Of a DNA stretch of 64,000 nt, positions 8,336 to 45,244 are shown in pieces. Origin of the DNA: Acidobacteriota bacterium (lineage in GTDB: Bacteria > Acidobacteriota > Terriglobia > Terriglobales > Acidobacteriaceae); contig QIAP01000052.1 of NCBI GenBank assembly GCA_003225075.1, forward strand, positions 1-64,000, given 5' to 3'. The number at the start of each line of letters is the position of its first letter. The first letter of the stretch is position 1. Made by a program: the position numbers and the translations under genes. The notes under the pieces are model-generated. The model was not told the origin of the DNA. It saw only the letters and a program-made list of their open reading frames with translations, and searched no databases.

Positions 8336-9766
8336 CTAAAGCGGGGTGTCGCCTAAGACTTGCTTCGAGGCGGCGAGCACCTCCGGAACCACGGCGTCTA
8401 CGTCGGCCTCGGTCGTGCGGTGGTTCACGATGCAAGCCCGCAAGCAGAACTTTCCGTGCAGCACAGCATTGGAAAGATATACTCTGCCGCGCTCGACCAC
8501 GCGCCGCAGGATTGCCGCATTCAGTTCATTGAGTTTGTTGTCAGGCTGTTCGCCGGGTCCGCGATGGCGGAAGCACACCGCGCTCAGTTCAACTGGCGCC
8601 ATGGATTCCAGTTCCGGCTGTTTCCGGACAGCCTCCGCGAGTCGCTGGGCGTGACTAAGGTCTCTTTCAATGGCCGCGCGGAAAGCGGCGAAGCCGTGAT
8701 AGCGCAATGACAACCATAGCTTCAGTGCACGAAAGCGTCGTGAAAGTTCAAGTGATTCTTCGAAAAAAACGAAGCCTTCCAGGGGATCGCTGCTAAGCGA
8801 CTTGGCGTAGTCCCCAGTGTGAGCGAATGTTTTGCGGGCCGCACCGGCATCGCGAAATAACAGGCAGCCGCAATCCAAAGGCTGGTAGAGCCATTTGTGC
8901 GGATCAAGCGAGAGTGAGTCAGCGAGTTTTAGACCGGCAAACTTTTCTCGCGACGCCATTGCCGCTAAGGCTCCGTAAGCCCCGTCCACGTGGACCCACG
9001 CACCATGGGCGTGGGCAATTTGAGCGATATCCGCGAGGGGATCGATAGCGCCGGTGTTGACAGTCCCGGCAGACGCAACCACCGCGACCGGAATCTTCCC
9101 AGCCTTTCGGTCGCGCTGAAGGCTGCGTTCCAGCTCCGCAGGAATCATACGGAATGACCGATCAGTTGAAATGAGCCGCAGATTGTCTCTGCCAATTCCG
9201 AGCAGCGCGACCGCCTTTGGGATAGACATATGTATTTCTTCGGAGGCGTAGACCACACCTTGCGGCGTGCTGCGAAGCCCAAACTCGTTGGCGGGCAGCT
9301 TGACTTCGCGCGCCATGGCCAGGCCCATCAGGTTGGCGGCGGATCCTCCGCCAGTCAGGCTGCCGCTGGAGCCGTCGCATCCGATGGCTTGGGCAAGCCA
9401 TTGCACTACCGTTCGCTCGATGGTGACGGCGGCCGGGCCGGAACGCCAGGCGGTGACATTCTGGTTAAGCGCGCTGACCAACAGGTCGGCGATGGCGCTC
9501 ACAGACTCGCCCGAGCCGAGTACGTATCCGAAGAAACGGCCATTCTGATTGCGGGAGTGACTTACAAGATCCCTCAAATTAGCGAAGGCGTCTTCACCAA
9601 GACCGTCCTCGGGCAAGTCCGTGCGGAAAAGCTTTTCAGTCGCCGCGCCATTAGAGCGGGGCGCAATTGGATAGGAGTCAAGCTTCTCGAAATAGTCCGA
9701 GGCAAATTGTGCAACTTGTTGCACTAGACGGCGGTACTGTTGCGGGGAAATTTCGATGGAGTTCAT
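8336..9766 (-). CDS. PLP-dependent decarboxylase (group II, aromatic-amino-acid type)
   Basis: This is a pyridoxal-phosphate enzyme of the glutamate/aromatic-L-amino-acid decarboxylase family, 476 residues. The PLP-lysine motif is SLDPHKWLYQPLDCG, preceded by WVHVDGAYGALAAM with the PLP-nitrogen Asp. GSLTGGGSAANLMGL is the phosphate-binding block near residue 135. The family removes CO2 from aromatic or related amino acids to yield amines. The exact substrate cannot be read from the sequence. It is cytosolic with no signal peptide. The start at ATG 9766 is preceded by a long spacer to the divergent GAF/TonB gene. Confidence 0.85.
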   Translation of the reverse strand: MNSIEISPQQYRRLVQQVAQFASDYFEKLDSYPIAPRSNGAATEKLFRTDLPEDGLGEDAFANLRDLVSHSRNQNGRFFGYVLGSGESVSAIADLLVSALNQNVTAWRSGPAAVTIERTVVQWLAQAIGCDGSSGSLTGGGSAANLMGLAMAREVKLPANEFGLRSTPQGVVYASEEIHMSIPKAVALLGIGRDNLRLISTDRSFRMIPAELERSLQRDRKAGKIPVAVVASAGTVNTGAIDPLADIAQIAHAHGAWVHVDGAYGALAAMASREKFAGLKLADSLSLDPHKWLYQPLDCGCLLFRDAGAARKTFAHTGDYAKSLSSDPLEGFVFFEESLELSRRFRALKLWLSLRYHGFAAFRAAIERDLSHAQRLAEAVRKQPELESMAPVELSAVCFRHRGPGEQPDNKLNELNAAILRRVVERGRVYLSNAVLHGKFCLRACIVNHRTTEADVDAVVPEVLAASKQVLGDTPL

Positions 9767-9967
9767 CGTGAGGCGATTTTACATGCACTCATTAGCAGCA
9801 CGCAGCCTGGGCTGAGGCCAGCGCCGGACGCCCGTTTCAGTGAATATGGCGTTGACAACCCGCCTTATTTGAAGGAAACTCGGCCAATGGCACGTTTTTT
9901 CCAGCCGACGTTTTTCGACTCTGGCCATATCGTGAGTCATTAGAAGTCGCTTTTAGGAGTCGTCAAA

Positions 9968-11509
9968 ATGGCGGATCGGGTTATCCCCCTGTCTTCATCC
10001 CCTTTGCCAGCCGATTTGGACTCATCGGCGCTGTTGCCACGACGGAAACCTGACTTGCCTGAATCAATCCCCTTAAGTCAGAACGGCGAACGCTTGAGCG
10101 CGGGAGACCGCGCCGTTGGCAAACAGGATCCCAAACAAGTCATTAGTGGATTGCGTAGCCTGGTTGCGCACGGCAACCTGGACTTGGACGCACTGTTGCA
10201 GAGGATCGCAGACACCGCAAGAGCCCTGACCGGCGCCACTGGAGCAGCCATCGCAATTCGCCGCGACCGCCTGGTGATTTGTCAGGCGAGAGCTGGTGAG
10301 ACGGCTCCGGATCTCGGCACAAAGCTGGATGTGGATTCTGGAATCTCGGGAGAATGCCTGCGCACCGGGCGCTCTCTGCGCTGCGATGATACGAGCAAGG
10401 ATTTAAGGGTGGATGCCGAAGTTTGCGCGCGGCTCGGTTTACGTTCGCTGGCGGCGGCTCCCATAGGGGAAAAACGCGGCATAGCGGGAATCATTGAAGT
10501 GTTCTCGTCCCGCCCGTATTCGTTTCCCGATCGTCACTTGCAATTGTTGGAACAGTTGGCACAACTGATCGCGGCCGCTCGCGCGCGCGCTAGTGAACCC
10601 GAGAAACCGACTGCAGCCTCTGAATTGCCAACCCCGTCTTCTGTGAGGGCAGCATTAGCCTCTCGTTTTGCCTCGCGGGCTAGCGTGTTGGGAAACTATG
10701 CGCGGGGAGTATTGATCCGCAGCATCAGCACCCGTCGCCGGCAGATTACGGTGGCCGGTATCGCGACTATTTTCTTGCTTTCCGCTTTGGTTTGGGTCTT
10801 TTGGAACGGCCATTCCAGAGTGACGACCCTGGCGACGAGCACCGCAGAAGCCGCCGCCAGGAATTCAGAATCTCTGGCGCCGGATGCGGAGACGGCGCTG
10901 GTCTGGAACGGCAGCGTAGCTAAAAATCAGGTAGGGACGCGTGCCAAACCAAGTGCGGGACTGACGGTTGGATCGGCAGCGAAGAACCGGCGGAAGGACT
11001 TCGCCGAGGACATGGTTGTACGCCCGGAACAGCCGGCTGGTGATTCTGCCGAAGTTTCGTCGAGCACGATAACTTCTGCGGAAACTTCGCAGTCAACTTT
11101 GCCGGGACCGCCAGAGGCCCAGGTCCGTGACAACCCGCCCCTTTTGTCCGGCACTGACAGTTCGCCAGAACGCACGACTACTCTGGCTAGCATGCTTTCC
11201 GCGCCAGCACTCTTGCCGCAACCTATGACGCGAGTGTCACAGGGTCTTTCAGCAGGTGTGGTCGAACATCGGGTGAAACCGACTTATCCGAGTCAAGCCC
11301 TCACCATGAGATTGCAAGGTCCGGTTGTCTTGCGGGCGATGATTGCGGAAGATGGAAGCGTACACGACTTAAAGGTGGTTAGCGGGCAACCAGTCCTCGC
11401 TCGCGCAGCCCTGGATGCGGTTCGGCAGTGGCGATATCGTCCTTACCGTTTGGATGGGACACCGGTTCGCATGCAAACTGAAATTACGGTTGATTTCAAA
11501 TTGCCCTAG
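9968..11509 (+). CDS. GAF-TM-TonB C-terminal fusion protein
   Basis: The 513-residue protein has three parts. Residues of about 55-205 form a GAF sensor domain (LDALLQRIADTARALTGATGAA, then SGISGECLRTGRSL). A single membrane helix lies at about 265-280 (ITVAGIATIFLLSALVWVFW) after an arginine-rich cytosolic stretch. A low-complexity Ala/Ser/Pro linker follows. The C-terminal 90 residues are a TonB energy-transducer domain (VKPTYPSQALTMRLQGPVVL, ending in VRQWRYRPY). The topology predicts a cytosolic GAF and a periplasmic TonB domain. The ribosome site is AGGAG just before ATG 9968. No ExbB/ExbD genes are adjacent. The role is unknown; coupling a cytoplasmic signal to envelope function is inference. 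Confidence 0.85.
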   Translation: MADRVIPLSSSPLPADLDSSALLPRRKPDLPESIPLSQNGERLSAGDRAVGKQDPKQVISGLRSLVAHGNLDLDALLQRIADTARALTGATGAAIAIRRDRLVICQARAGETAPDLGTKLDVDSGISGECLRTGRSLRCDDTSKDLRVDAEVCARLGLRSLAAAPIGEKRGIAGIIEVFSSRPYSFPDRHLQLLEQLAQLIAAARARASEPEKPTAASELPTPSSVRAALASRFASRASVLGNYARGVLIRSISTRRRQITVAGIATIFLLSALVWVFWNGHSRVTTLATSTAEAAARNSESLAPDAETALVWNGSVAKNQVGTRAKPSAGLTVGSAAKNRRKDFAEDMVVRPEQPAGDSAEVSSSTITSAETSQSTLPGPPEAQVRDNPPLLSGTDSSPERTTTLASMLSAPALLPQPMTRVSQGLSAGVVEHRVKPTYPSQALTMRLQGPVVLRAMIAEDGSVHDLKVVSGQPVLARAALDAVRQWRYRPYRLDGTPVRMQTEITVDFKLP

Positions 11510-32388: not shown

Positions 32389-32844
32389 TTGGAAAGACGA
32401 TTGACCTTCCGCAAGTATCTGGTGCTGGTGGGGGTGACCATTTTCGCGGCGGCAGGCGATTCCCTGCTCTCCCGCGGCATGAAGGAAGTCGGTAACGTTT
32501 CGCTCAGCCACCTTTCGGATGTGATTCTGGCGATCCTCAATCCCTGGGTCGCAGCCGGAATCGTGCTCCTCCTGGGGTTCTTCGCGGCGTACATGACAGC
32601 GCTCTCCTGGGCCGACTTGACTTATGTGCTGCCCGCAACCTCGCTCGGATATGTGCTGCTCGCTTTAGCCGCCAGATTTCTATTACATGAACACGTGAGT
32701 CCCACGCGCTGGTTGGGCATTGTGCTCATTTCCAGTGGGGTCGGATTTGTTGCAGGCGGTCCTCCCCGTACCCACGTCACCCCTCACACGGATGCCCAGA
32801 ACTCTGCCAGGAATGCGCTAGTGATAAAGAGCAGGAACTCATGA
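32389..32844 (+). CDS. Small EamA/SMR-like membrane protein 1
   Basis: The 151-residue protein has four predicted membrane helices, at about 8-25, 45-68, 72-92 and 100-120 (WLGIVLISSGVGFVAGGP). It looks like one half of an EamA/DMT carrier or an SMR subunit. A polar tail of about 25 residues follows. The start codon is TTG 32389; a TTG four codons later is also possible. It sits 41 bases after hpnJ and overlaps the next, similar gene by four bases, so the two probably form a heterodimer. Confidence 0.72.
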   Translation: MERRLTFRKYLVLVGVTIFAAAGDSLLSRGMKEVGNVSLSHLSDVILAILNPWVAAGIVLLLGFFAAYMTALSWADLTYVLPATSLGYVLLALAARFLLHEHVSPTRWLGIVLISSGVGFVAGGPPRTHVTPHTDAQNSARNALVIKSRNS

Positions 32845-33221
32845 AATCGATTTACACATGGGCTGCCATCCTCGTCATTGTTCTGACCTCGACGACCGGG
32901 GACATACTGCTGGCCCGCGCCATGAAACGCGTAGGAGATGTCGGGCAACTCCGGCGGCGCCAGGGACTCATGGCAGTGCTGGGGCGCGTGCTGCGCAATC
33001 CTCATTTCCTGCTCGGCCTGGTAGCTATGGCGTGCGGATTCTACAGTTTGCTGTTTGCGCTTTCGTGGGGAGATGTGAGCCTGGTGGCCCCGGCAGCGGC
33101 TTCGCTTACATTCATAGCGAACGCCATTGCGGCAAGAATTTTCCTGCATGAAAGAGTGGACCGCCGGCGATGGATTGCTGCTCTGCTGGTCGCTGGCGGA
33201 GTGGTGCTGCTGGCAACCTAG
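32841..33221 (+). CDS. Small EamA/SMR-like membrane protein 2
   Basis: The 126-residue protein has four predicted helices (AAILVIVLTSTTGDILLARA, FLLGLVAMACGFYSLLFALS, and two more). It shares the pattern GDxLLxRxMKxVG and SWxDxxxVxPA with the upstream gene, so the two are paralogues. ATG 32841 overlaps the previous stop. Paired four-helix proteins of this type include the ArnE/ArnF lipid flippase and paired SMR pumps. Next to hpnJ, a lipid-flipping role is a plausible inference, not shown. Confidence 0.75.
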   Translation: MKSIYTWAAILVIVLTSTTGDILLARAMKRVGDVGQLRRRQGLMAVLGRVLRNPHFLLGLVAMACGFYSLLFALSWGDVSLVAPAAASLTFIANAIAARIFLHERVDRRRWIAALLVAGGVVLLAT

Positions 33222-33236
33222 AGTCCAGCAGAGATA

Positions 33237-34634
33237 TTATTCGAACAGCCGCATAAATCCCGATGCAGGCAAATCCGGCACCATGAATTTTGTATCTTGC
33301 AAGCCGGATGCACGGGCAACCCCTTCCGCAGCCATGTATCCGCTTCGCACCGCGCCCTCCATGGTGGCGGGCCACCCCGTTGCCACCCAATCTCCTGCGA
33401 GAAACACTCGCGGCCAGACTGTCTCCGGTCTGGGACGGTAGAGATCCACTCCGGGGCCGGGCGAAAACGTGGCATGGACCTCTTTGATCACCGTTGATTT
33501 CACCAGCTTGGCGGTACGCGCTTCCGGAAAGAATTCTCCTAGCTCGCTTAGCGCGAGTTCCACAATCTCGGTTTTGGATCTCTCAACCAGATTCTTCGAA
33601 GAACTGACAACAAGTTCGATATAACTGCCGCCGCCGTTGCGTCCCAAAAGCTTCGATTTATGGAACATCCACTGAATGGTGCGGTCAAGCAACACAGCAT
33701 GGTTCAGTTCCGTAATCGGGCGGTCGAACCAGAGGTGAATGCCGGTGATCGGAGAAGTCTGGAAATGATTCAACTCTTGCCTTAGTTTCTCCGCACCGGA
33801 ATGTTGAGGCAGCAGGCGAGACAAAGCATCGAAGGGAACGGCCAACACTGCAAAATCGAAACTCGTTTCCTTCCCTCCGATGGAAACCTTTATCAGAGAC
33901 GGTTCCGGAGAAAACGACTCCACTCCGGATCTAAATTCCACTTTGCCATCACGCGCCTTGATGTATTCACCCCCGCCCTCGTAGAGCTCAGTCAGGGGCA
34001 CCATGGGAAGACCAATGCGTCCGGCAGACACGGACTTAAGAAATGATTCGCGGACTACCTGGGCTGCGTAGTGGATTGAAATTCGATTTAGATCCTCGTT
34101 GAGGGCGCTAACTAAGAGCCCTTTCCAGAAACGCTCAATCGCGGCCTGGGTTTGTCCATGGCGGCGGAGCCAGGTCAGGAATGCCTCGCCGGTGTCACTG
34201 GGCAGCTTGGGGGTGAGCACTAGCATGGCGCGCGCGATAGACAGCTTGTCCGACATATCCAGACAGGAGGCCCGGAGAAAAGCCGGCGCGGTGTGGAAAG
34301 GCGCAGGCAGGAATGATGGTTTTATAGCCGAGGCACGTCCCCCCGGCTCCAAAAATGTATATTGATCGAACCAGCGGATCTTGCTTTCTACCCCAATCCG
34401 CCGATAGAACTCGATCAGGTTGGTACAGCAACCCAGCAACAAATGTTGGCAGTTATCCACCACCTCGCCGGTGCCGGGATGTTGGTAGGAAGATGCGCGG
34501 CCCCCCAGATAGGAACGCCGCTCAAAAAGCGAGACCCGGAATCCAGTATTAGAGAGAGCACAACTGGCAGCCAATCCTGCCAGCCCCCCTCCAACAACTG
34601 CCACCGTGGGAGGTTCTGTTCGGGTCTGGTTCAT
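33237..34634 (-). CDS. hpnE: Hydroxysqualene dehydroxylase / FAD desaturase HpnE
   Basis: HpnE is a flavoprotein that converts hydroxysqualene to squalene, the last step of the three-enzyme HpnC/D/E route. It has 465 residues. The N-terminal FAD loop reads VVGGGLAGLAASCALSNTGF with the RRSYLGGRASS block. The C-terminal FAD contact is VFLAGDWVATGWPATMEGAV. Its ATG shares one base with the stop codon of hpnD. It ends the minus-strand hopanoid operon and converges on the SMR-like pair. Confidence 0.93.
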   Translation of the reverse strand: MNQTRTEPPTVAVVGGGLAGLAASCALSNTGFRVSLFERRSYLGGRASSYQHPGTGEVVDNCQHLLLGCCTNLIEFYRRIGVESKIRWFDQYTFLEPGGRASAIKPSFLPAPFHTAPAFLRASCLDMSDKLSIARAMLVLTPKLPSDTGEAFLTWLRRHGQTQAAIERFWKGLLVSALNEDLNRISIHYAAQVVRESFLKSVSAGRIGLPMVPLTELYEGGGEYIKARDGKVEFRSGVESFSPEPSLIKVSIGGKETSFDFAVLAVPFDALSRLLPQHSGAEKLRQELNHFQTSPITGIHLWFDRPITELNHAVLLDRTIQWMFHKSKLLGRNGGGSYIELVVSSSKNLVERSKTEIVELALSELGEFFPEARTAKLVKSTVIKEVHATFSPGPGVDLYRPRPETVWPRVFLAGDWVATGWPATMEGAVRSGYMAAEGVARASGLQDTKFMVPDLPASGFMRLFE

Positions 34635-35578
34635 CAGGCCAGACGTTTCAGGAAACCCTTTGCCAGAATGATCAGCTTCTCGCGGACCGTCAAATTAATC
34701 TTACCGTGGAATACGTCATAGCCTTGCTGCGCAATTTTGTCCAGTAGTTTGCGATATATATTGATTAAGACCCACAGAGCGGGCTGGCTGTCTTCGTCTA
34801 CCAGAGGAATCAGTTCGTCACCAGCGCGGTAATAGTTTCTCGCTCTTTCCGCCTCCATGGCAAGCAACGGGAGGAACCGCGCGGCATCATTCGTAGTGGC
34901 AACCTCAGAAGCGGAGATGCCGAACGCAGCCAAGTCTTTCTCCGGAAGGTAGACCCTGCCCATTTCGGCGTCTTCTTTAACGTCGCGAATGATGTTCGTA
35001 AGTTGGAAAGCCAGACCGCAACGCTCGGCCAGTGGCTCGGCCGCAGGGTCGTGATACCCGAACACGCGGATGCACACCAGCCCAACTATCGAGGCAACAC
35101 GATAGCAGTATTCGTACAGATCCTCAAAAGTGCGATATTGCACCGCGAGTGCATGCGGCGCCGGCGCGTCCGCCCACGGTTCGCCATCCTGCACGTCCAT
35201 CATTGTGCCGAAGGCAAGCTGATCGAGCAATTCTGGCGGAATGTGATACTTCCGTTGCGCGTCGGTCAGCGCCAGCAGGACGGCATCGTCCGTGGATTCG
35301 CCCGCCTGCGCGCGGTGCAGGCGGGCGAGACGCTCCGCCAGCTTATTCCTGCGCTCCTGAAGTGGGACAGCGGGGTCGTCCGCAATATCATCACAGCCAC
35401 GCATGAAAGCGTAAACCGCATACAAGGCTTCGCGTTTGGCGCGGGGTAGAACAAGGAAAGCATAATAGAAATTCTTCGCTGCGGAGCGCGTGATGCTACG
35501 GCACACCGAGTAGGCCACCGCGAGCTGAGACGACGTGGCAGAAAACTGCAAGGGCGCTTGTTGTACCCCCGCACTCAT
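34634..35578 (-). CDS. hpnD: Presqualene diphosphate synthase HpnD
   Basis: HpnD joins two farnesyl diphosphates to presqualene diphosphate. The 314-residue all-helical trans-isoprenyl transferase has the first Asp-rich site in FMRGCDDIADDP and the second in LTNIIRDVKEDAEMGRVYLP. The region YCYRVASIVGLVCIRVFGY is typical. It overlaps hpnC by four bases upstream and shares one base with hpnE downstream, so the three are translationally coupled. It is a cytosolic or membrane-surface enzyme. Confidence 0.94.
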   Translation of the reverse strand: MSAGVQQAPLQFSATSSQLAVAYSVCRSITRSAAKNFYYAFLVLPRAKREALYAVYAFMRGCDDIADDPAVPLQERRNKLAERLARLHRAQAGESTDDAVLLALTDAQRKYHIPPELLDQLAFGTMMDVQDGEPWADAPAPHALAVQYRTFEDLYEYCYRVASIVGLVCIRVFGYHDPAAEPLAERCGLAFQLTNIIRDVKEDAEMGRVYLPEKDLAAFGISASEVATTNDAARFLPLLAMEAERARNYYRAGDELIPLVDEDSQPALWVLINIYRKLLDKIAQQGYDVFHGKINLTVREKLIILAKGFLKRLA

Positions 35579-36522
35579 AAAAATTTGACCAGCGCAGCAC
35601 GGGCCACCAGCGCCAGCTTCCGCCGCCTGGAGATAGCCGGACGCAGGCCCAGCACTGAAAATGCCTGGCGCTCAATGGCATTCAGCACTTCCTGGCCCCC
35701 TCGGCTGAAAAGCTCGATGTCAGTTGCCAGATCGTGATCGACTTTTCCTACCAAGGGAAGTCCACGTCGGAACCAATCTCGCGCCCGGTCCACTTCGAAT
35801 CGCATCATTTCGCGAAACGCTGGTGTATTCTGCTGCCTCGCGATATCTTCTTCGCTCACTCCATATTGCCGCAGATCCCCGAGAGGCAGGTAGATACGGC
35901 CTTTGGCGTAATCCAGGGTGACATCCTGCCAGAAGTTCGCCAACTGCAACGCCGTGCAGCTGTAATCCGAAAGCTGCTGACGCTCCGCATCACGGTATCC
36001 ACAAAGATAGAGCACGAGGTGTCCAACCGGATTTGCCGAATAGCGGCAATAACCCAGCAAGTCATCGAAACTCTCATACCGTGTGACCTTCTGATCCTGA
36101 CGAAAGGCTGTAAGCAAATCAGAGAATTCGTGCTTGGGGATCTCGAACTCGCGGATTGTGTCTGCCAATGCTACGAATACTGGATGCCTGGGATGGCCCG
36201 CGTAACCAGCGTCCAGCTCGGCTTCCCACTCATCGAGCAAGCGCAACGAAGTTTCGGCATCGCCGGTCTCGTCGCCAAGGTCGTCCGAGATACGGCAATA
36301 GGCATAGACATTGAAGAAATGCTGTCGTAATCGCTGCGGTAGGAACCAGGTCGCCACTGAAAAGTTCTCATAATGTGTGCGGGCAAGACGCCTGCAATAC
36401 TGACGCGCCTCCTCGTCTGAGGGGGCTCGGTCAGGAACCGCGTATTCAGAGGGAAAATTGCTCCAGCCGGCCGCCGAAGTATGAACAGGCGCAGTATGAG
36501 AGCGGCTAGCCATGGATGACAT
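35575..36522 (-). CDS. hpnC: Hydroxysqualene synthase HpnC
   Basis: HpnC converts presqualene diphosphate to hydroxysqualene. The protein is about 315 residues, of the same fold as HpnD, with Asp-rich sites VYAYCRISDDLGDETGD and LANFWQDVTLDYAKGRIYLP. A short Ser/Ala-rich N-terminus precedes the domain. I place the start at ATG 36522, with GGGGAGA about 12 bases upstream; the frame is open 20 codons further. It follows the first dehydrogenase gene after 87 bases. Confidence 0.92.
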   Translation of the reverse strand: MSSMASRSHTAPVHTSAAGWSNFPSEYAVPDRAPSDEEARQYCRRLARTHYENFSVATWFLPQRLRQHFFNVYAYCRISDDLGDETGDAETSLRLLDEWEAELDAGYAGHPRHPVFVALADTIREFEIPKHEFSDLLTAFRQDQKVTRYESFDDLLGYCRYSANPVGHLVLYLCGYRDAERQQLSDYSCTALQLANFWQDVTLDYAKGRIYLPLGDLRQYGVSEEDIARQQNTPAFREMMRFEVDRARDWFRRGLPLVGKVDHDLATDIELFSRGGQEVLNAIERQAFSVLGLRPAISRRRKLALVARAALVKFL

Positions 36523-36609
36523 AGTTAGTTCTGTCTCCCCGTGATTCGGACCCCGGCCGCGACCATCCCTCAAAAATCCCATTCCCCCAGGATTTCGGAG
36601 TCCCGAAGT

Positions 36610-37647
36610 TCAATGGCCGGGAATGATAGCGGTCTTGATGTCGCCGTTGCGATTCAGCATGTGTCGGAGAACCTGCTGCAATCGCGAGAGCGGCGCTTCG
36701 CCGGTAATGTAATCGTTGGAACGAATTTTCTTTTCCGAAATGAGCCTGAACGCCCGTCGAACGGTATCCGGGGTGTGATGGAACGTTGCCTTCAAAGTAA
36801 TCTCTGAATAATGCAGTCGATTGGTATCAAGCTGCACCTTTGTCCCGCTGGCACACCCGCCAAAAAAATTCACGGTGCCACCCTTACGCACCATCTCCGT
36901 AGCCCATTCCCAGGCTTCTGGACGGCCTACAGCCTCGATGACAACATCCCCGCCTCGCCGCTCAGCGGTGACCGCGCGGACTGCTTCTATCGGGTCTTTG
37001 ACCTTGGTGATTTGCACCACCTCTTGCGCGCCCATGTGCTTGACCGCAGTGGCTTGAGAATCACGCTTCACTACTGCCACCACATTGCACCCAATCGCCT
37101 TGGCTACCTGAACGAACATCAAGCCGATGGGCCCACCGCCAATCACAACCACGGTATCGCCGATTTCTACGCCGGTTTCGTGCAATCCCCGCAGCACGCA
37201 AGCCAGAGGCTCCACCATAGCGGCTTCTTCGTAACTTACATCTGGCGGAACGGCCAGCATATTGGCCTCAACGATTCGCTTAGGAATGCGAATGTACTCG
37301 GCATACGCTCCGTTATTAAAGAGCAGATCTTCGCAAAGATTTTCCTGGTGTTTAGAGCAGTAGAAACACATCTGGCAGGGAGCGGAATTTAATGCCACAA
37401 CCCGCACGCCCTTCCTGAAGGCACGCACATTGGCGCCGACTTCTTCGACGACGCCAGCGAGTTCATGTCCGAACAGTGCCGGGGGAACAATCATGCGGGC
37501 ATGGTAGCCACGCTGGTAGACCTTAAGATCGGTGCCGCAAGTCAGTGCCACCTGCACCTTGACAAGCACTTCGCCATCCCCCACCCGGGGAATCGGCACT
37601 CTTTCAATTTTTATGTCCTCTTTTCCATAAAGGACGGCAGCGGTCAT
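36610..37647 (-). CDS. Zinc-dependent dehydrogenase 1 in hopanoid operon
   Basis: This medium-chain zinc dehydrogenase (sorbitol/threonine dehydrogenase-like) has about 345 residues. The catalytic zinc site is ALTCGTDLKVY with FGHELAGVVEEVG; the structural zinc cysteines are in CQMCFYCSKHQENLC; the Rossmann loop is VVVIGGGPIGLMFVQVAK. ATG 37647 begins the domain (MTAAVLYGKEDI). It sits eight bases after a paralogue and 87 bases before hpnC. Position suggests it acts on a hopanoid side chain, for example ribosylhopane, but no substrate is known. Confidence 0.85.
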   Translation of the reverse strand: MTAAVLYGKEDIKIERVPIPRVGDGEVLVKVQVALTCGTDLKVYQRGYHARMIVPPALFGHELAGVVEEVGANVRAFRKGVRVVALNSAPCQMCFYCSKHQENLCEDLLFNNGAYAEYIRIPKRIVEANMLAVPPDVSYEEAAMVEPLACVLRGLHETGVEIGDTVVVIGGGPIGLMFVQVAKAIGCNVVAVVKRDSQATAVKHMGAQEVVQITKVKDPIEAVRAVTAERRGGDVVIEAVGRPEAWEWATEMVRKGGTVNFFGGCASGTKVQLDTNRLHYSEITLKATFHHTPDTVRRAFRLISEKKIRSNDYITGEAPLSRLQQVLRHMLNRNGDIKTAIIPGH

Positions 37648-37655
37648 CTTTCCGT

Positions 37656-38780
37656 TCACGCTGAACTTCCTTCCCATACGCTGCCCGGTTGGATCACTAT
37701 TTTCATCGACTCGGGTTTAGGATGGGCAGCCAGATTAAGGGCTTCCAGGCTGTTAGCGAGAGGAAAGCGGTGGCTGATCAGGCGCTCCAGATCCATATCA
37801 TGGTTCATGACAAATCGCACGGATTCCTCCTGCAACTCGACGGAAGCACTGTACGATCCCAAAAGTGTCTTTTCGTCGACGCAAACGGCGGCGGGATCAA
37901 AAGTGGCCTCTCCACTTACTGTCTGAGCAAATAACAATACCCGCCCGCCTGGACGCGTCGCATCCATGGCAGACCGGATAAGGCCATTCCCGCCTACCGC
38001 CAAAATCACGGCGTCCGCCCCACGACCTTCCGTGAGTTCGCGCGTCCGCTTGACTGCATCGGACCGCGAAGCATCAATCTGAAGTTCTAACCCGAAGCTT
38101 TTACTTATTGTAAGCCTCTCAGGGTACAAATCGGAAGTAATCACCGTAGCCCCTCTCCGTTGGGCCAATACACTCAGCACGATGCCAATGGGGCCTTGAC
38201 CGATTACTAGAATCGTTTCACTATGCTCAGGATGCAGTGTCGCAATTCCCTTCATGCAGGTATTCACTGGTTCCACGAAGCAAGCCTGCTCAAACGAGAT
38301 CTGATCCGGGATGCGGACGGTACCTCGCTTCACGATCCAGTCCATCACGCGGACGTATTCGGCGAATCCTCCACCGCTCGGCTCAAATCCCGCAGTGCAA
38401 CCCACCTTCTTGTACGTGGGGCATTGGGCGAAAGTTTTGTGCCGGCAGTAATAGCACTCACCGCAGGGTATGTGATGAAAGACGACTACTCGGTCTCGCG
38501 CTGCGAACTCATTAACACCCTCACCCACTGCAGCGACGATCCCTGAAATTTCGTGTCCAAAGATACGTGGGGCGGAGTGCGAGCCTGTTGCAATTTTCTT
38601 TAAGTCAGTGCCGCAAATGCCACAGGTGTGGACTTTTACCAGGAGTTCACCTGCGCCGATTTTAGGAACCGGCACGATTTCGAGGCGTACATCGTTGACC
38701 CCACGGTAGACAGCGGCCTGCATGGTCGTGGGAATCGATTGCTTCCGATCTTCCACCGCGATTTGCCTGGTCATCCCCAT
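37656..38780 (-). CDS. Zinc-dependent dehydrogenase 2 in hopanoid operon
   Basis: This is a 374-residue paralogue of the next gene in the operon. Catalytic zinc site: CGICGTDLKK with FGHEISGIVAAVG; structural zinc cysteines: CGECYYCRHKTFAQC; Rossmann loop: ILVIGQGPIGIVLSVLAQ. It is complete, so the duplication is not a decayed copy. It starts two bases after hpnG, which makes coupling to the adenine-removing step of hopanoid side-chain synthesis likely. An internal ATG at 38723 would also give an intact domain. Confidence 0.85.
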   Translation of the reverse strand: MGMTRQIAVEDRKQSIPTTMQAAVYRGVNDVRLEIVPVPKIGAGELLVKVHTCGICGTDLKKIATGSHSAPRIFGHEISGIVAAVGEGVNEFAARDRVVVFHHIPCGECYYCRHKTFAQCPTYKKVGCTAGFEPSGGGFAEYVRVMDWIVKRGTVRIPDQISFEQACFVEPVNTCMKGIATLHPEHSETILVIGQGPIGIVLSVLAQRRGATVITSDLYPERLTISKSFGLELQIDASRSDAVKRTRELTEGRGADAVILAVGGNGLIRSAMDATRPGGRVLLFAQTVSGEATFDPAAVCVDEKTLLGSYSASVELQEESVRFVMNHDMDLERLISHRFPLANSLEALNLAAHPKPESMKIVIQPGSVWEGSSA

Positions 38781-38782
38781 AA

Positions 38783-39514
38783 CTATGTTTTTAAGTTTGC
38801 GGCGGCTCGTGGATCAGAGCTTACGGCCTGAGCGTGCGCTTCAGTGGTTACCGCCGACAAGGCTTCACAGAGCTTTCCAGCTGCCAGAACGCTATCGCGG
38901 GCCAACTGCCCCACGCTAGCCCAGAGCCGGGGTCGAAACGCCACATACACAACAAATTTAAGCGCATGAAAACGACCATCGTCGCCTATGAACCGCCCAA
39001 TGGGTGGCATGCGTGAATCATTCGCATCGGAGATTACCTTGCAGGCCAGGAACTTTATTCCGTGCGCCTCTGCGGCGCGAGCCACGGTTGCAGCTTCCAT
39101 GTCCACGGCGTGCGCTCCGTACGCCTTTGCCAGCTTAGCCTTTTGCTCTACGTCCGCGACGCTTTCGAAACTAACCAATACGCCATGCCCGGCACCTGAG
39201 TCAGTGCGGCTGCCATCGCCCGCGTCGATGACATGCCGGGGGGTCAGCGTATGACCGACTTGCAGCGACCCATCGAGCCCGCCTGCAAATCCAGCAGAAA
39301 TCAACAGAGACGGCTGATACAAGCTGATGATAGCCTCGGCGGCACGGCGGGCTGCTTCTGACCCCATTCCTCCGCAGACCAGCACCATGGGTCCGCTCTC
39401 AAAGAACTTGAACCAGCGCCCTTCGTGTTCCCTGTGGCTTACAGGCCAGCCTTTTACCAGCGGCCAGACTTCGCGCTCCAGGGCAGCGACAATGGCGACT
39501 TTAGGTGTTGGCAT
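38783..39514 (-). CDS. hpnG: Adenosylhopane nucleosidase HpnG
   Basis: HpnG removes adenine from adenosylhopane to give a ribosylhopane. The protein of about 243 residues belongs to the MTA/SAH nucleosidase/phosphorylase fold. VAIVAALEREVWPLVKGW is the start, LISAGFAGGLDGSLQVGHTL the substrate loop, and VDMEAATVARAAEAHG the ribose-binding Glu block with a following Asp (ISDANDS). ATG 39514 lies inside the end of hpnA (14-base overlap). Confidence 0.9.
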   Translation of the reverse strand: MPTPKVAIVAALEREVWPLVKGWPVSHREHEGRWFKFFESGPMVLVCGGMGSEAARRAAEAIISLYQPSLLISAGFAGGLDGSLQVGHTLTPRHVIDAGDGSRTDSGAGHGVLVSFESVADVEQKAKLAKAYGAHAVDMEAATVARAAEAHGIKFLACKVISDANDSRMPPIGRFIGDDGRFHALKFVVYVAFRPRLWASVGQLARDSVLAAGKLCEALSAVTTEAHAQAVSSDPRAAANLKT

Positions 39515-40508
39515 AGCCGTTTGCCCGAAACCATTCCACGGCGCGGCCCAGGGCATCCTTCACTGGAACCACCTTCCAGCCCAGTTCCCGCACCGCTTTG
39601 CCCGAAGTCACAAACATTTTCTTGCGGCTCATTTGTACGGCTTCAATAGTCGCGCGTGGTTCGCGCCGCAAAATCCGTCCAGTGACCATCTCGTCGACGA
39701 CGCCAGCCAGCAGGGCCACTGCATAAGGCACTCTGACCTTGGGTGATGGCAATCCTGTTATTGCAGACAGCTTGTCGAGAATCTGCTTCAACGTGAGATT
39801 TTCGCCGCCCAAAATGTAGCGCTCGCCGCTTCTTCCCTTCTCCAGCGCTGCCACATGGCCTCGGGCACACTCTCTAACATCCACCAGGTTCAGACCGGTG
39901 TCCACGTAGGCCGGAAACTTCTTCTTAAGGAAGTCCACAATGATGCGGCCTGTCGGAGTCGGCTTAATGTCCTGTTCACCGACGGGCGTCGTGGGATTCA
40001 CCACGACCACATCCATTCGTTCTCCGCCAATGTCTTTCCTTCCAGCATCCAGCGCAACCTGCTCCGCCATAAATTTTGAGCGCTTGTAATGGCCGATCAT
40101 ATTCTCGAGCGCGACCGGCGAGTCCTCGTTCGCAGGATGCCCGTTGGAAGTAAACCCCATCGTGGCCACGCTCGAGGTATAGACAACCCGCCGAACCCGG
40201 TTCTTGCGGGCGGCTTCCAGAATCGCCCGTGTCCCCTCCACATTTGAGCGATACATTTGATCTGGATCGCGAATCCACAGCCGGTAATCGGCCGCAACGT
40301 GGAAGACTACGTCGCATCCGGAGATCGCTGTTTCCAGAGTATTCGGATCTCGCAGATCCCCTGTCACCCGCTCCGCGTTCAAGTTCTGGATATTTTTCGG
40401 GTCGCTGCTGGAACGAACTAGCAGCCGCAAATCAGCTCCCTGCTCGGCTAAAATGCGTGCCACATGGCTGCCGACGAATCCGGTTGCGCCTGTGACGAAA
40501 GCTTTCAT
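39501..40508 (-). CDS. hpnA: Hopanoid-associated sugar epimerase HpnA
   Basis: HpnA is an NAD-dependent epimerase/dehydratase-like SDR protein carried in many hopanoid clusters; its exact reaction is unsettled. About 335 residues, with the Rossmann loop FVTGATGFVGSHVARILAEQ, the YKRSKFMAE (YxxxK) catalytic block, and SSVATMGF. ATG 40508 opens the domain (MKAFVTGAT). It is 121 bases downstream of the small unnamed gene and overlaps hpnG by 14 bases. Confidence 0.92.
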   Translation of the reverse strand: MKAFVTGATGFVGSHVARILAEQGADLRLLVRSSSDPKNIQNLNAERVTGDLRDPNTLETAISGCDVVFHVAADYRLWIRDPDQMYRSNVEGTRAILEAARKNRVRRVVYTSSVATMGFTSNGHPANEDSPVALENMIGHYKRSKFMAEQVALDAGRKDIGGERMDVVVVNPTTPVGEQDIKPTPTGRIIVDFLKKKFPAYVDTGLNLVDVRECARGHVAALEKGRSGERYILGGENLTLKQILDKLSAITGLPSPKVRVPYAVALLAGVVDEMVTGRILRREPRATIEAVQMSRKKMFVTSGKAVRELGWKVVPVKDALGRAVEWFRANGYANT

Positions 40509-40629
40509 GGGCCAACGCTCGGCACTTGACAATCAGTAGTCAGCCAGATTGTTTCGGGATAAGTCCGCGCGGGACGCCAGGCTGGGCAAGCGCCAAATGC
40601 TAAGCGCTGAATGCTATTCACCTTGCCAG

Positions 40630-41079
40630 CTACTCAAGCTTTTCCGGCTGCAGTGAAATCTCGCTTTCGCCCGCAGCCTTCTTCTCCCAGTAATGGCGGA
40701 CCCAAGTCTCCCAGTTCCTACCAGCGGCCATATCACGGCCGGTGAAAGCCAAGGCTGCAATATCTGAATAGCAGATGGATATCTTTGCTGCGCCATCCTT
40801 AGGCAACACCCGTACAGAACTCTGCTCGAGAGTGGCCCCATTGCGGCGATCGAAAATATACCCTTCGATCTTGGCGCCGTCTTTCCTCGTGATCATTACG
40901 TCGCCGCGGTAATCGAAGGCCAGCTCCAGGGCCGCGCGCAGTTCCTCAGGAGCAGCCAGCTCCGGGACCCATCCTTCCAGTTTTTCCCGCGTGCTGCCCG
41001 GTACGACTTCAAGGATGTTTGGATCGGCCAGGGTGCGCTCCGACCCAGATGGGGTTCGACCTGCTTCTCTGCCGCTCAA
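40630..41079 (-). CDS. Unnamed small protein between hpnH and hpnA
   Basis: I do not recognise a named family. The 149-residue protein has a helical front (REKLEGWVPELAAPEELRAA) followed by a small all-beta part: YRGDVMITRKDGAKIEGYIF, TLEQSSVRVLP, ISICYSDIAALAFTGRD. This strand order looks like an Sm/SH3-like barrel. The end is charged (KKAAGESEISLQPEKLE). Start codon TTG 41079 overlaps the hpnH stop (TTGA), so its level is tied to hpnH. A similar barrel appears in the partial gene at 63785. It may be a hopanoid accessory or regulatory factor; this is inference. Confidence 0.75.
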   Translation of the reverse strand: MSGREAGRTPSGSERTLADPNILEVVPGSTREKLEGWVPELAAPEELRAALELAFDYRGDVMITRKDGAKIEGYIFDRRNGATLEQSSVRVLPKDGAAKISICYSDIAALAFTGRDMAAGRNWETWVRHYWEKKAAGESEISLQPEKLE

Positions 41080-42197
41080 ACGTGTGTTTCCTCCGCAGCA
41101 TGGTTATTGATCTGAACCAGAGGATTGAAGGCATGCACCGGATGGACCGGTTCGTCGAGCAATTCGAGAGCTGATGGGTCCTTATAGCTGCTAAAAAGTG
41201 TAGCGCGCGCGGTTTGCCACAAGCCCCGCAGCGAGCCGAAGGTATCGTTGACTGCGGACGCCTCGTAGCCGCTGTGAACCATGCAATTCGCACACTTGGG
41301 ATTTCCTGATTCCGTGCCGTATCGTTCCCATTCCGTGGTTGCCAGCAGTTCGGCAAAAGTATCGGCGTAACCGTCCTGAAGCAGGTAGCAGGGCTTTTGC
41401 CAGCCGAAAATGTTGAATGTGGGCATACCCCAGGGGGTACACGTATAATCTTGCTTGCCCATCAGAAATTCGAGAAATAGGGGCGACATATTGAACCGCC
41501 AGTTCGCTTTGCGGTTGGACAAAATGGAACGAAATAGTCGCCGGGTGCGGGCACGTCCCAAAAAGTGGCTCTGATCGGGTGCTTTTTCGTAGGAATAACC
41601 TGGAGAAAGCATCATGCCTTCGACCCCAAGTTCCATCATTTCGTCAAAGAAGGAGCGCACGCTTTTGGGATCGGCGCCGTCGAACAACGTTGTGTTCGTG
41701 GTGACCCGGAAGCCACGATTGAGCGCCTCTCTAATACCCTCAAGTGCCTTGTCGTATCCGCCTTCCAGGCACACGGAAAAATCGTGGTGCTCCCGCTGAC
41801 CATCCATGTGGACGGAGAAGGTCAAGTATTTGCTGGGTGTAAAGGAATCGATCTTCTGCTTCAGCAGCAGCGCATTGGTGCACAGGTAAATGTATTTCTT
41901 GCGCGCTACCAGCCCCTCGACAATCTCGCCGATCTGAGGGTGCAGCAACGGCTCTCCGCCGGGGATAGCCACGGTGGGCGCGCCACATTCTTCGACCGCG
42001 CGAAAGCATTCCTCGGGCGTAAGTTGCGCCTTCAGTATGTGGCTGGGATACTGAATCTTTCCGCAACCCGCGCATGCCAGGTTGCAGCGGAACAGCGGCT
42101 CCAGCATGAGCACCAGTGGATATTGCTTGCGTCCCCTAAGCTTCTGCTTGAGGACGTAGGTTGCCACCGTCCACATCTGCGAAATTGGTACAGCCAT
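41076..42197 (-). CDS. hpnH: Adenosylhopene-forming radical SAM enzyme HpnH
   Basis: HpnH couples the 5'-deoxyadenosyl group to diploptene, the first step of the C35 side chain. It has 373 residues. The radical SAM cysteines are 38, 42 and 45 in FRCNLACAGCGKIQYP. SPASM-like C-terminal cysteines are in GTESGNPKCANCMVHSGYEA and NIFGWQKPCYLL. HpnH motifs IPGGEPLLHPQI and LTFSVHMDGQREHHD are complete. It starts 59 bases after shc. Confidence 0.95.
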   Translation of the reverse strand: MAVPISQMWTVATYVLKQKLRGRKQYPLVLMLEPLFRCNLACAGCGKIQYPSHILKAQLTPEECFRAVEECGAPTVAIPGGEPLLHPQIGEIVEGLVARKKYIYLCTNALLLKQKIDSFTPSKYLTFSVHMDGQREHHDFSVCLEGGYDKALEGIREALNRGFRVTTNTTLFDGADPKSVRSFFDEMMELGVEGMMLSPGYSYEKAPDQSHFLGRARTRRLFRSILSNRKANWRFNMSPLFLEFLMGKQDYTCTPWGMPTFNIFGWQKPCYLLQDGYADTFAELLATTEWERYGTESGNPKCANCMVHSGYEASAVNDTFGSLRGLWQTARATLFSSYKDPSALELLDEPVHPVHAFNPLVQINNHAAEETHV

Positions 42198-42256: not shown

Positions 42257-44257
42257 TCAATCGCCTGCGCCCGCCGTCTGCGCGCCGGTTCCTTGCGGGA
42301 CACCGGCCACAACCTTCGCGTAAGTAGTCAGCGCGAGCAGGGGAAAGTACTCCCGGTACATGTGGTACTTGAGGTAAAACACCCGCGGGAAACCGGTGCC
42401 GGTAAAAAATGGCTCGTCCCAGGAACCGTCTTTTTTCTGAGTGCGAAGCAGGTAGGCAACGCCTCTGGCTACGGAATCGCTGCGTGTGTCATTGGCCGCC
42501 AATAAACCCAGCACTGCCCACGCTGTCTGCGAGGCGGTACTCGGTCCAATTCCCTTTGTATCGGCGTCGTCATATGAAGTACAAGTCTCGCCCCAACCGC
42601 CATCGGGATTCTGCACCATGCGCAGCCATTCGGCGCCCTGTTGAACGTAAGGCTCGTGGTAGTCCACGCCCATCGCTTCCAGCCCGCGCAGCACCAGCGC
42701 TGTGCCGTAAATGTAGTTCACGCCCCAGCGCCCGAACCAGGACCCATCCGCTTCCTGCTCTTTTCGAATAAATCGAATCGCCTTCTTGACCACGGGATGA
42801 TTCCTGTCATATCCGTAAGCAGCCAGCATCTCGAGGATACGCCCGGTAATGTCCACCGTCGCTGGATCCAGCATAGCGTTGTGATCGGCAAAGGGAACGT
42901 GCTGGAAGACCATGCGGTCGTTGTTCTTGTCGAATGAAGCCCAGCCGCCGTTTTTGCATTGCATCGAGAAAATCCAATCAATCGCACGCTGGATGGACTC
43001 GCGCAAATAGCGTCCGTTGGGATGCTCTACATGAGTCAGCGCCAGACAAACCATGGCGCTATCGTCAACGTCCGGGTAAAACTCGTTATTAAACTCGAAG
43101 TACCAGCCGCCGGGCTGTCCCTGCGGATTTTTCACTTTCCAATCCCCGACCGTCCGCACCTGCCTCTGCAAAATCCAATCGGCGCACCTGACCATGCGGG
43201 GATCATTGCGCGGCACTCCGCTCTCACCGAGCGCAAACATTGCGTATGCCGTGTCCCACACGGGCGACATGCAAGGTTGCATGCGGAAAGTGTGTTCTTC
43301 CTCGATGCCGAGTTTTTCGAATTCGTCGAGCGCTCGGATCACCTGGGGATCGTCCACCGAATACCCGAGACAGCGAAGTGCGATGATGGCGTTCAGCATG
43401 GAGGGGTAGATTGCGCCCAGGCCATCGCTCATTTCGAAGTGCGCCAGCATCCACTTCTCCGCCTGCTTGAGCGCGATGAACCGCAACGGACGAATGTGCA
43501 CCCGCTCGAACCAGTGCGTCATGCGATCCAATAACAGGAAAAAATTCCGCCATGACACCAGCTTGGTATCCCAAGTCAGGTGCATGCGGGATTTATCGCG
43601 GCCGCCCACAAAAAGTTCTTCCACACCTATTTCGCCGGGAATTTTCTTGAACGGCTTTTTCGCGTAGCAAATCGAGAGCGGTACCAGAATCGCGCGCGAC
43701 CACGAGGAAATCTCGTAGATGTTGAACCAGAACCACTTGGGAAACAACACGATTTCGGGAGGAATCGCGGGAACAGCGTCGTAGTCGTACTGCCCGAAGA
43801 AGCACAAATAGATTTTGGTAAAGGTGTTGACCTTGGTGACGCCGCCCATCTCAAGGATCTTCTTGCGGGCACGCGAGAGAGCGGGATGATCCGCCGTGTA
43901 TCCCGCCAGCTTCAAGCCGAAGTAAGCTTTCACCGAAGCGCTGATATTCGAAGGGCCGGCAGCGTAGATGCTCCACCCTCCATCGTCGTTCTGATGCTGC
44001 AAAATGTAATTAGCCGCCTTCGCAAAACGCTTCTGATCGCCAGTACCGAGAAGAGTGTGCAGCAGAATGTAATCAGACTCAAGGGTGGTGTCAGCTTCCA
44101 GCTCGCCGCACCAGTAGCCGCCTTCGTGCTGCTGCGAAAACAATCTCTTACGAGCAGCGTCGATACTTGCCGCCACGCGGCTCGAAAGATCATCTATCTT
44201 TCCGAAATGCAGCTGCGGCTCAGAGGCTATCGGAGATGAGGGGGAGTAATTGTCCAT
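42257..44257 (-). CDS. shc: Squalene-hopene cyclase
   Basis: Shc cyclises squalene to hopene and hopanol at the membrane. The 666-residue double alpha-barrel has the catalytic DxDD as DVDD at about residues 394-397 (EFYPDVDDSAMVCL). Several QW repeats are visible (LQHQNDDGGW, CKNGGWASFD, EQEADGSWFGRW, QNPDGGWGE, TQKKDGSWDE). The length is normal. It starts nine bases after the ispH stop, so the two are likely cotranscribed. It should use squalene from HpnC/D/E. Confidence 0.97.
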   Translation of the reverse strand: MDNYSPSSPIASEPQLHFGKIDDLSSRVAASIDAARKRLFSQQHEGGYWCGELEADTTLESDYILLHTLLGTGDQKRFAKAANYILQHQNDDGGWSIYAAGPSNISASVKAYFGLKLAGYTADHPALSRARKKILEMGGVTKVNTFTKIYLCFFGQYDYDAVPAIPPEIVLFPKWFWFNIYEISSWSRAILVPLSICYAKKPFKKIPGEIGVEELFVGGRDKSRMHLTWDTKLVSWRNFFLLLDRMTHWFERVHIRPLRFIALKQAEKWMLAHFEMSDGLGAIYPSMLNAIIALRCLGYSVDDPQVIRALDEFEKLGIEEEHTFRMQPCMSPVWDTAYAMFALGESGVPRNDPRMVRCADWILQRQVRTVGDWKVKNPQGQPGGWYFEFNNEFYPDVDDSAMVCLALTHVEHPNGRYLRESIQRAIDWIFSMQCKNGGWASFDKNNDRMVFQHVPFADHNAMLDPATVDITGRILEMLAAYGYDRNHPVVKKAIRFIRKEQEADGSWFGRWGVNYIYGTALVLRGLEAMGVDYHEPYVQQGAEWLRMVQNPDGGWGETCTSYDDADTKGIGPSTASQTAWAVLGLLAANDTRSDSVARGVAYLLRTQKKDGSWDEPFFTGTGFPRVFYLKYHMYREYFPLLALTTYAKVVAGVPQGTGAQTAGAGD

Positions 44258-44266
44258 ATGGTGGTT

Positions 44267-45244
44267 CTACTTCGCACTGGCGCTCGCGGGAGCGCTTGCA
44301 ATGGCCTCCACTATTTCAGGCGGTAAACCAAAACGTACGTTTTCCGGCATGACTTCAAGCTCATTTACATTGTCGAAGCCCTGAGTAGTCAGGAATCGGA
44401 CTACTTCCTCCACCAGACATTCCGGCGCGGAAGCCCCCGCAGTAAGAGCGATGGTTTTAACGGCTTCCAGCCACGCGGGCTTTATGTCTTTGTAATTATC
44501 GATAAGATGCGCGTTGGTGCCCAGGTTACGCGCGACCTCAACCAGGCGGTTGGAATTGGAGCTGTTATCAGAACCAACCACCAAAACCAAGTCTGCTTCC
44601 GAGGCCACCTCTTTGACCGCGACTTGTCGATTCTCGGTGGCATAGCAGATGTCTTGCGCCGCCGGACCCTTGATATTGGGAAAGCGCTTCTTCAGAGCCG
44701 CGATAATGTCGGTAGTTTCATCGAGACTGAGGGTCGTCTGAGTCAGATACGCGACTCGATTGGGATCGGGTACGGTTAATGATTCGACTTGCTGCGGCGA
44801 TCCCACCACCTGGGTTACCAGCGGCGCCTCGCCCAATGTTCCGATTACTTCATCGTGATCGCGATGACCAATGAGGATAAGCGAATACCCTTCCTTGGCG
44901 AACTTTACGGCTTCCACATGTACTTTGGTGACCAGCGGACAGGTAGCGTCGATGACTCGCAGTTTGCGCAGATGGCTATTCTCCCGCACTTCGGGAGAAA
45001 CTCCATGGGCGCTGTAAATGACCCGCTCGCCCGCGGGGACTTCCTCCACGCTATCTACGAAGATCGCTCCCTTGGCCTGGAGTTCCTCAACCACAAAGCG
45101 GTTGTGGACGATCTCCTTGCGCACATAAATTGGTGGTCCGAAGGCTTCCAAGGCGATGCGGACGATGTCGATAGCCCGCACCACGCCCGCGCAGAACCCT
45201 CTCGGTTTTAACAAAAGTAAGGTCTTGCCATTACCGTTCGACAC
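44267..45244 (-). CDS. ispH: 4-hydroxy-3-methylbut-2-enyl diphosphate reductase
   Basis: IspH is the last enzyme of the MEP isoprenoid pathway, giving IPP and DMAPP. It has 325 residues; cluster cysteines are in KPRGFCAGVVRAID, VIDATCPLVTKVHVE, and TAGASAPECLVEEVV. HGVSPEVRE and ATENRQVAVKEV (family motif TxxRQ) are present. The start is GTG 45244 with AGGAG five bases upstream. It is the first gene of the hopanoid operon, which is a sensible place for precursor supply. Confidence 0.96.
   Translation of the reverse strand: MSNGNGKTLLLLKPRGFCAGVVRAIDIVRIALEAFGPPIYVRKEIVHNRFVVEELQAKGAIFVDSVEEVPAGERVIYSAHGVSPEVRENSHLRKLRVIDATCPLVTKVHVEAVKFAKEGYSLILIGHRDHDEVIGTLGEAPLVTQVVGSPQQVESLTVPDPNRVAYLTQTTLSLDETTDIIAALKKRFPNIKGPAAQDICYATENRQVAVKEVASEADLVLVVGSDNSSNSNRLVEVARNLGTNAHLIDNYKDIKPAWLEAVKTIALTAGASAPECLVEEVVRFLTTQGFDNVNELEVMPENVRFGLPPEIVEAIASAPASASAK

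Follow-up and report, generated by a model that had tools for sequence, protein, structure and literature searches.

Two neighbouring zinc-dependent dehydrogenases in the hopanoid gene cluster of Acidobacteriota: candidate enzymes for a side-chain step after HpnG

Introduction

Which enzyme converts ribosylhopane into bacteriohopanetetrol (BHT)? Geohopanes, in wide use as molecular fossils, descend from BHT and its derivatives, and in 2025 the enzyme for the conversion of ribosylhopane had still not been established (PMC12583986). An earlier sequence-only reading of the DNA analysed here had said as much, and had proposed that two zinc-dependent dehydrogenases encoded between hpnG and hpnC (DH1 and DH2 in this work) make BHT or otherwise alter the hopanoid side chain. 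The window, i.e. the whole stretch that was analysed, comprises 64,000 nucleotides (positions 1 to 64,000 of contig QIAP01000052.1, Acidobacteriota bacterium).

Genes at these positions were described in acidobacteria by Sinninghe Damsté et al. in 2017, in the clusters hpnA-hpnG-ug1 and ug2-hpnC-hpnD-hpnE (PMC5462960). No function was given for either gene and no family was named for ug1; ug2, whose product was described as a Zn-binding alcohol dehydrogenase (ca. 350 amino acids), occurred in every acidobacterium of SD1 and SD3 but not in Chloracidobacterium thermophilum, a BHP producer, and HpnA was the favoured candidate for the BHT step (PMC5462960). DH1 (after hpnA-hpnG) and DH2 (before hpnC-hpnD-hpnE) share the positions of ug1 and ug2, respectively, and by position are their equivalents. 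The placement of the pair has thus been known since 2017; added here are the cofactor split, the dependence of DH1 on DH2, the arrangement seen in one lineage (f69) and the occurrence of the pair in other phyla.

Results and Discussion

Gene layout of the hopanoid cluster

The genes of the cluster lay on the minus strand in the order ispH, shc, hpnH, a gene for a 149-amino-acid protein, hpnA, hpnG, DH1, DH2, hpnC, hpnD and hpnE. The upstream end was formed by ispH (lytB; 44267..45244, PF02401), followed by shc, encoding squalene-hopene cyclase (42257..44257, 790 bits to TIGR01507), and hpnH, encoding the radical SAM adenosylhopane synthase (41076..42197), which was recognised by its family architecture (Radical_SAM plus DUF3463) and its synteny after shc. 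HpnA, a hopanoid-associated sugar epimerase-like SDR (39501..40532, 500 bits to TIGR03466), and HpnC, encoded next after DH2 (35575..36582, 342.8 bits to TIGR03464), scored above their cut-offs, HpnD (34634..35578) slightly below (251 bits vs. 278.6, TIGR03465), and HpnE (33237..34634) reached 477.7 bits to TIGR03467. The hpnG-like phosphorylase (38783..39556, PNP_UDP_1) was far below the curated cut-off of TIGR03468 (97.7 vs. 187.1 bits), so that it is named from profile similarity and from its fixed place after hpnA, a position in which an hpnG-like gene recurred in dozens of clusters. The 149-amino-acid protein (40630-41079) was without Pfam or NCBIfam match; many f1 genomes have kept its gene in the same place after hpnH, and it is probably ug3 of PMC5462960.

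Between hpnG and hpnC there were, as the sequence-only reading had it, two complete open reading frames, DH1 (37656..38780, minus strand, 374 amino acids) and DH2 (36610..37677, minus strand, 355 amino acids from the first ATG). Both matched ADH_N and ADH_zinc_N above the Pfam gathering cut-off. The spacing of 2 and 8 bases from the upstream neighbours was also as described there: 2 bases separated hpnG from DH1, and DH2, which from its first ATG overlaps DH1 by 22 bases, begins 8 bases past DH1 when counted from the second ATG (M11, 37647), the probable start, in agreement with the starts of its orthologues. The motifs noticed earlier (CGTD, GHE and the structural four-Cys zinc site) were present in both proteins, together with a Glu-Pro third ligand. 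Membership of the MDR family was indicated by the conservation of the catalytic zinc ligands (Cys, His-Glu and Glu) and of the four-Cys site; two of the sampled DH2 sequences, among them L215 (f68), had Asp in place of the catalytic Cys.

Enzyme family, fold and predicted cofactors

AlphaFold models of DH1 (pLDDT 90.8) and DH2 (pLDDT 92.9) had the MDR fold, that of polyol/threonine dehydrogenases in the case of DH1, and matched PDB entries with TM values of 0.8-0.9; the nearest folds included sorbitol, xylitol, galactitol-1-P and L-arabinitol dehydrogenases. The MDR polyol/threonine dehydrogenases (sorbitol, xylitol, galactitol-1-phosphate, L-arabinitol-4 and threonine-3) have the fold, the Cys/His/Glu zinc ligands, the four-Cys lobe and the GxGxxG motif in common with DH1 and DH2, but their solved members were 20-30% identical to them, and the hopanoid cluster context sets DH1 and DH2 apart. 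Both proteins fell under every NCBIfam equivalog cut-off (the top score was 166 bits vs. 458, for tdh); characterised equivalogs (threonine-3, idonate-5, galactitol-1-P and scyllo-inosose dehydrogenase) were rejected, none reaching its curated cut-off, and the structure search was discarded as a source for the substrate because its matches were general MDR enzymes only.

The Rossmann motif was of the NAD type in DH1 (GQGPIG...TSDLYPER in the window) and of the NADP type in DH2 (GGGPIG...VVKRDSQ). An acidic residue (Asp, once Glu) ended the second Rossmann strand in all 108 DH1 sequences (108/108); the residue at the same position was non-acidic in 130 of 131 DH2 sequences, with KR or RR next in 117. 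As an acidic residue at this position usually denotes NAD in the MDR superfamily, and a non-acidic one NADP, the sequences predict NAD as the cofactor of DH1 and NADP as that of DH2. The NADP(H)-dependent ketose reductase of whitefly (1e3j; 28% identity, TM 0.90) was one of the best structural matches to DH2 and likewise lacks the acidic cofactor residue; its substrates are small sugars with no relation to lipids, unlike the role proposed for DH2.

DH1 and DH2 were ~32% identical to each other. In the tree, the DH1 orthologues formed one group (support 97) and the DH2 orthologues another (92), with weak deepest branches, and a recent tandem duplication was not supported, the two lying in separate groups. 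The word 'twin' in the sequence-only reading therefore does not imply a recent origin from each other. Similar-looking MDR pairs (about 30-47% identical) occurred in other contexts (f31, f44, f46 and f59; the one in f46 adjoined a gene that by eye was chorismate mutase-like), and were rejected as orthologues, since the tree put them outside both groups. These looser pairs, and the abundance of MDR enzymes (16 matches in this genome), speak for DH1 and DH2 being general polyol or alcohol dehydrogenases that travel with the operon and do not act on hopanoids; such a reading has little probability, given that the true orthologues form two groups that exclude the looser pairs and that are found mostly in HpnH-positive genomes, in several phyla.

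Conservation in Acidobacteriota

The survey covered 149 genomes of the phylum, 200 Terriglobia genomes and 80 GTDB contigs. DH1 orthologues (48-77% identity) were found in 20 of the 149 phylum genomes, the window's own included, each together with a DH2 orthologue, and the next-best DH1 matches were at most 40% identical. HpnH was present in 35 of these genomes; in one (G113) both dehydrogenases and HpnA were present and HpnH was not found. Among the 200 Terriglobia, 156 had HpnH, 132 had DH1 (131 of them HpnH-positive) and 140 had DH2 (138 HpnH-positive), and DH1 never occurred without DH2. Co-occurrence with HpnH gave Fisher p values of 9e-25 for DH1 and 2e-26 for DH2, uncorrected for the shared ancestry of these related genomes. 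The HpnH-negative exceptions in Terriglobia were assemblies of 81-85% completeness (G190 and G206); further HpnH-negative genomes with DH orthologues (G132, G334, G337 and G339) count against the hopanoid link.

The order ispH-shc-hpnH-hpnA-hpnG-DH1-DH2-hpnC-hpnD(-hpnE) was found in the families f1, f49, f65, f66, f67, f68 and f73, and in many GTDB contigs, so that the survey of placement suggested by the sequence-only reading revealed the same order across families. Upstream of DH1, the closest hpn gene was hpnG (83 genomes) or hpnA (5 genomes), and upstream of DH2 it was DH1 in 101 genomes; the contigs were partly collected with a DH2 query, and these counts therefore describe arrangement, not frequency. 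Recurrence in dozens of genomes nevertheless makes the placement more than chance. A fusion of hpnC and hpnD, reported for one lineage in PMC5462960, was seen here in f68.

Beyond the cluster, hpnJ was encoded on the plus strand of the window, and it adjoined the cluster in many f1 genomes. This, together with a sub-threshold similarity of DH1 and DH2 to the scyllo-inosose dehydrogenase IolM (144-155 bits vs. a cut-off of 450), would suit enzymes acting with HpnJ on composite hopanoids, on a head-group sugar or cyclitol, instead of forming BHT. We hold this to be quite improbable: hpnJ was absent from the stretch read in many clusters with the DH pair (f67, f68 and f73), and the DH genes adjoin hpnG, not hpnJ.

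Split clusters, losses and lineages without the dehydrogenases

Where the cluster was split (f1 genomes), DH1 remained with hpnG and DH2 with hpnC, and in G130 DH1 accompanied hpnG although hpnA was elsewhere. The f69 lineage (five genomes plus contigs L278 and L289) had the order hpnG-DH2-hpnC-hpnD-hpnE, with DH1 missing. Both dehydrogenases were absent from hpnG-containing clusters of f70 (G195 and G215) and f66/g153 (G326, on a contig extending 4.6 kb past hpnG), and from deep lineages with hpnG (f2, f24, f25, f40, f46, f47 and f55). No substitute reductase was evident after hpnG in these DH-free clusters; in several deep lineages, hpnG was followed by genes that, from a reading of their sequences, were squalene/phytoene synthase-like or IPP isomerase-like. 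The sequence-only reading had named hopanoid clusters without one or the other dehydrogenase as evidence against its proposal, and such clusters were thus encountered in part of the phylum. The DHs are not required everywhere HpnG occurs, and the presence wherever HpnH and HpnG are found that would mark the BHT-forming enzyme was not observed in the phylum, though a non-universal enzyme is possible. Taken with the BHPs that Chloracidobacterium makes without ug2, these lineages mean that the pair cannot be a universal BHT synthase.

In-cluster hpnG, DH1 and DH2 were also absent from five hpnH-positive genomes of 94-100% completeness (G007, G159, G166, G220 and G242). In G159, G166, G220 and G242 (f66; contigs L191, L192, L193 and L194) hpnH and hpnA were adjacent, and shc, hpnG and the DH genes were not beside them. 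As hpnA is left beside hpnH and shc was not seen adjoining in the adjacent region, the entire pathway may be decaying there; that HpnA is retained there while in-cluster HpnG is missing argues against a role of HpnA confined to steps after HpnG. The genome of G007 was without hpnA, hpnG, hpnC, DH1 and DH2. In its contig L146, an insertion-sequence-like ORF (9000-10100), reading by eye like an IS630 transposase, followed ispH-shc-hpnH and the 149-amino-acid gene in place of the expected hpnA-hpnG-DH1-DH2-hpnC.

Absences in G286, G302 and G201 were left out of the losses, the contig stopping at hpnG, and neither G285 (contig end) nor G329 was assigned as a loss; in the latter, DH1 was split over two overlapping frames (L201, 10747-11804), reflecting a frameshift or an assembly error.

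Occurrence in other phyla

The DH1-DH2 pair was found on Omnitrophota and Chthonomonas-type Armatimonadota contigs, with hpnH, hpnA and hpnG elsewhere in the same genomes; the two genes thus stay adjacent outside the hopanoid cluster. A second Armatimonadota contig had the order DH1-DH2-hpnC-hpnD-hpnE, and HpnH was not found in its genome, which argues against a hopanoid side-chain role. DH2 alone occurred in two further genomes, one from Verrucomicrobiales with HpnH and one from Latescibacterota in which no HpnH match was found. All these non-Acidobacteriota genomes are MAGs, so that presence and absence are both risky. One MAG labelled Acidimicrobiia (L250/L317) contained a full Bryobacterales-type hopanoid cluster and may be mislabelled or a mixed bin.

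The second Armatimonadota contig, like the split clusters, would favour DH1, adjoining hpnG, as the ribosylhopane reductase, and a role for DH2 tied to hpnC-hpnD-hpnE. This assignment seems improbable: the f69 lineage has hpnG and DH2 without DH1, and the HpnC-HpnD-HpnE route to squalene has been rebuilt in E. coli with no such dehydrogenase present (described in PMC5462960).

An alternative functional context for the pair was sought among the unlinked copies and rejected, as these adjoined unrelated genes with no recurring partner; by eye, the neighbours were proline dehydrogenase-like and QueF-like genes in G066/L223, and amino-acid genes in L262.

Proposed function of DH1 and DH2

The fixed gene order across families, the co-occurrence with HpnH and the unlinked co-occurrence in two other phyla make a dedicated role of the pair in the hopanoid pathway probable. 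Of the earlier proposal, which is supported in part, this is the well-supported portion. DH1 and DH2 are good candidates for the enzyme converting ribosylhopane into BHT, and we give BHT formation by the pair a little less than an even chance. Substrate, reaction direction and division of labour we infer as follows. DH1 and DH2 would be dedicated C35 hopanoid side-chain enzymes downstream of HpnG, which frees ribosylhopane, a compound able to open into an aldehyde. DH2, with zinc and an NADP-type site, would most likely convert this aldehyde into BHT using NADPH, and DH1 (NAD-type) would most likely either oxidise or reduce this polyol side chain in a further step that can be dispensed with, or aid the step of DH2. 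The BHT step being a reduction, the NADP-type DH2, which is retained when one of the two is kept, is the better single candidate; the invariant NAD-type site of DH1 suggests a second step, not redundancy. The exact split, with DH2 as NADPH reductase and DH1 as the second step, is put forward tentatively and is rather doubtful in its detail; against it, one reduction needs no two enzymes.

The strict NAD/NADP split in two neighbours that are nearly always together, even outside the cluster, and the dependence of DH1 on DH2 would also suit a relay, in which one partner uses NAD+ to oxidise a hydroxyl of the side chain and the other reduces the ketone from the other face with NADPH. The outcome would be a stereocentre set or inverted (e.g. 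a BHT stereoisomer) or a carbonyl moved, not BHT formation. We consider such a relay unlikely, since f69 keeps DH2 without DH1 and cofactor type by itself does not set the direction; stereochemical data on acidobacterial BHT were not found.

As for reduction of ribosylhopane by DH2, the same reaction was reportedly observed by Bodlenner et al. in 2015 as an activity in a cell-free extract of Methylobacterium organophilum. When alphaproteobacterial hpn clusters were surveyed in 2025, no additional candidate genes were found near them (PMC12583986), which counts against the proposed role of the pair, and the activity in M. organophilum may therefore be unrelated to DH2. A broader and more speculative reading, to which we assign a low probability, is that Acidobacteriota, together with some other phyla, carry out the missing BHT step with a two-enzyme NAD/NADPH system, unlike that of Proteobacteria, which also steers the stereochemistry of the side chain; different enzyme families would then yield the same geolipid. 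The BHT step becomes directly testable through a pair of candidate genes, each with its own predicted cofactor, and through lineages that naturally lack either DH1 or both genes; if the assignment is true, genomes could predict which bacteria produce BHT.

Genes neighbouring hpnJ and hpnG

HpnI and hpnK were not identified beside hpnJ in the window. An HpnK above cut-off was encoded between hpnJ and a pair of EamA genes in G051 (L158:11886-12773), and an HpnI-like gene followed hpnG in G066 (L154:5025-6038; partial ORF, 300 vs. 310 bits). Two small EamA/ArnE-like membrane proteins (sub-threshold to ArnE) were encoded beside hpnJ in the window (32389-33221, plus strand); they were also seen on L129, L135 and L158, and many f1 genomes have them in this position. 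Together they could make up an SMR-type flippase of two parts that acts on a hopanoid conjugate.
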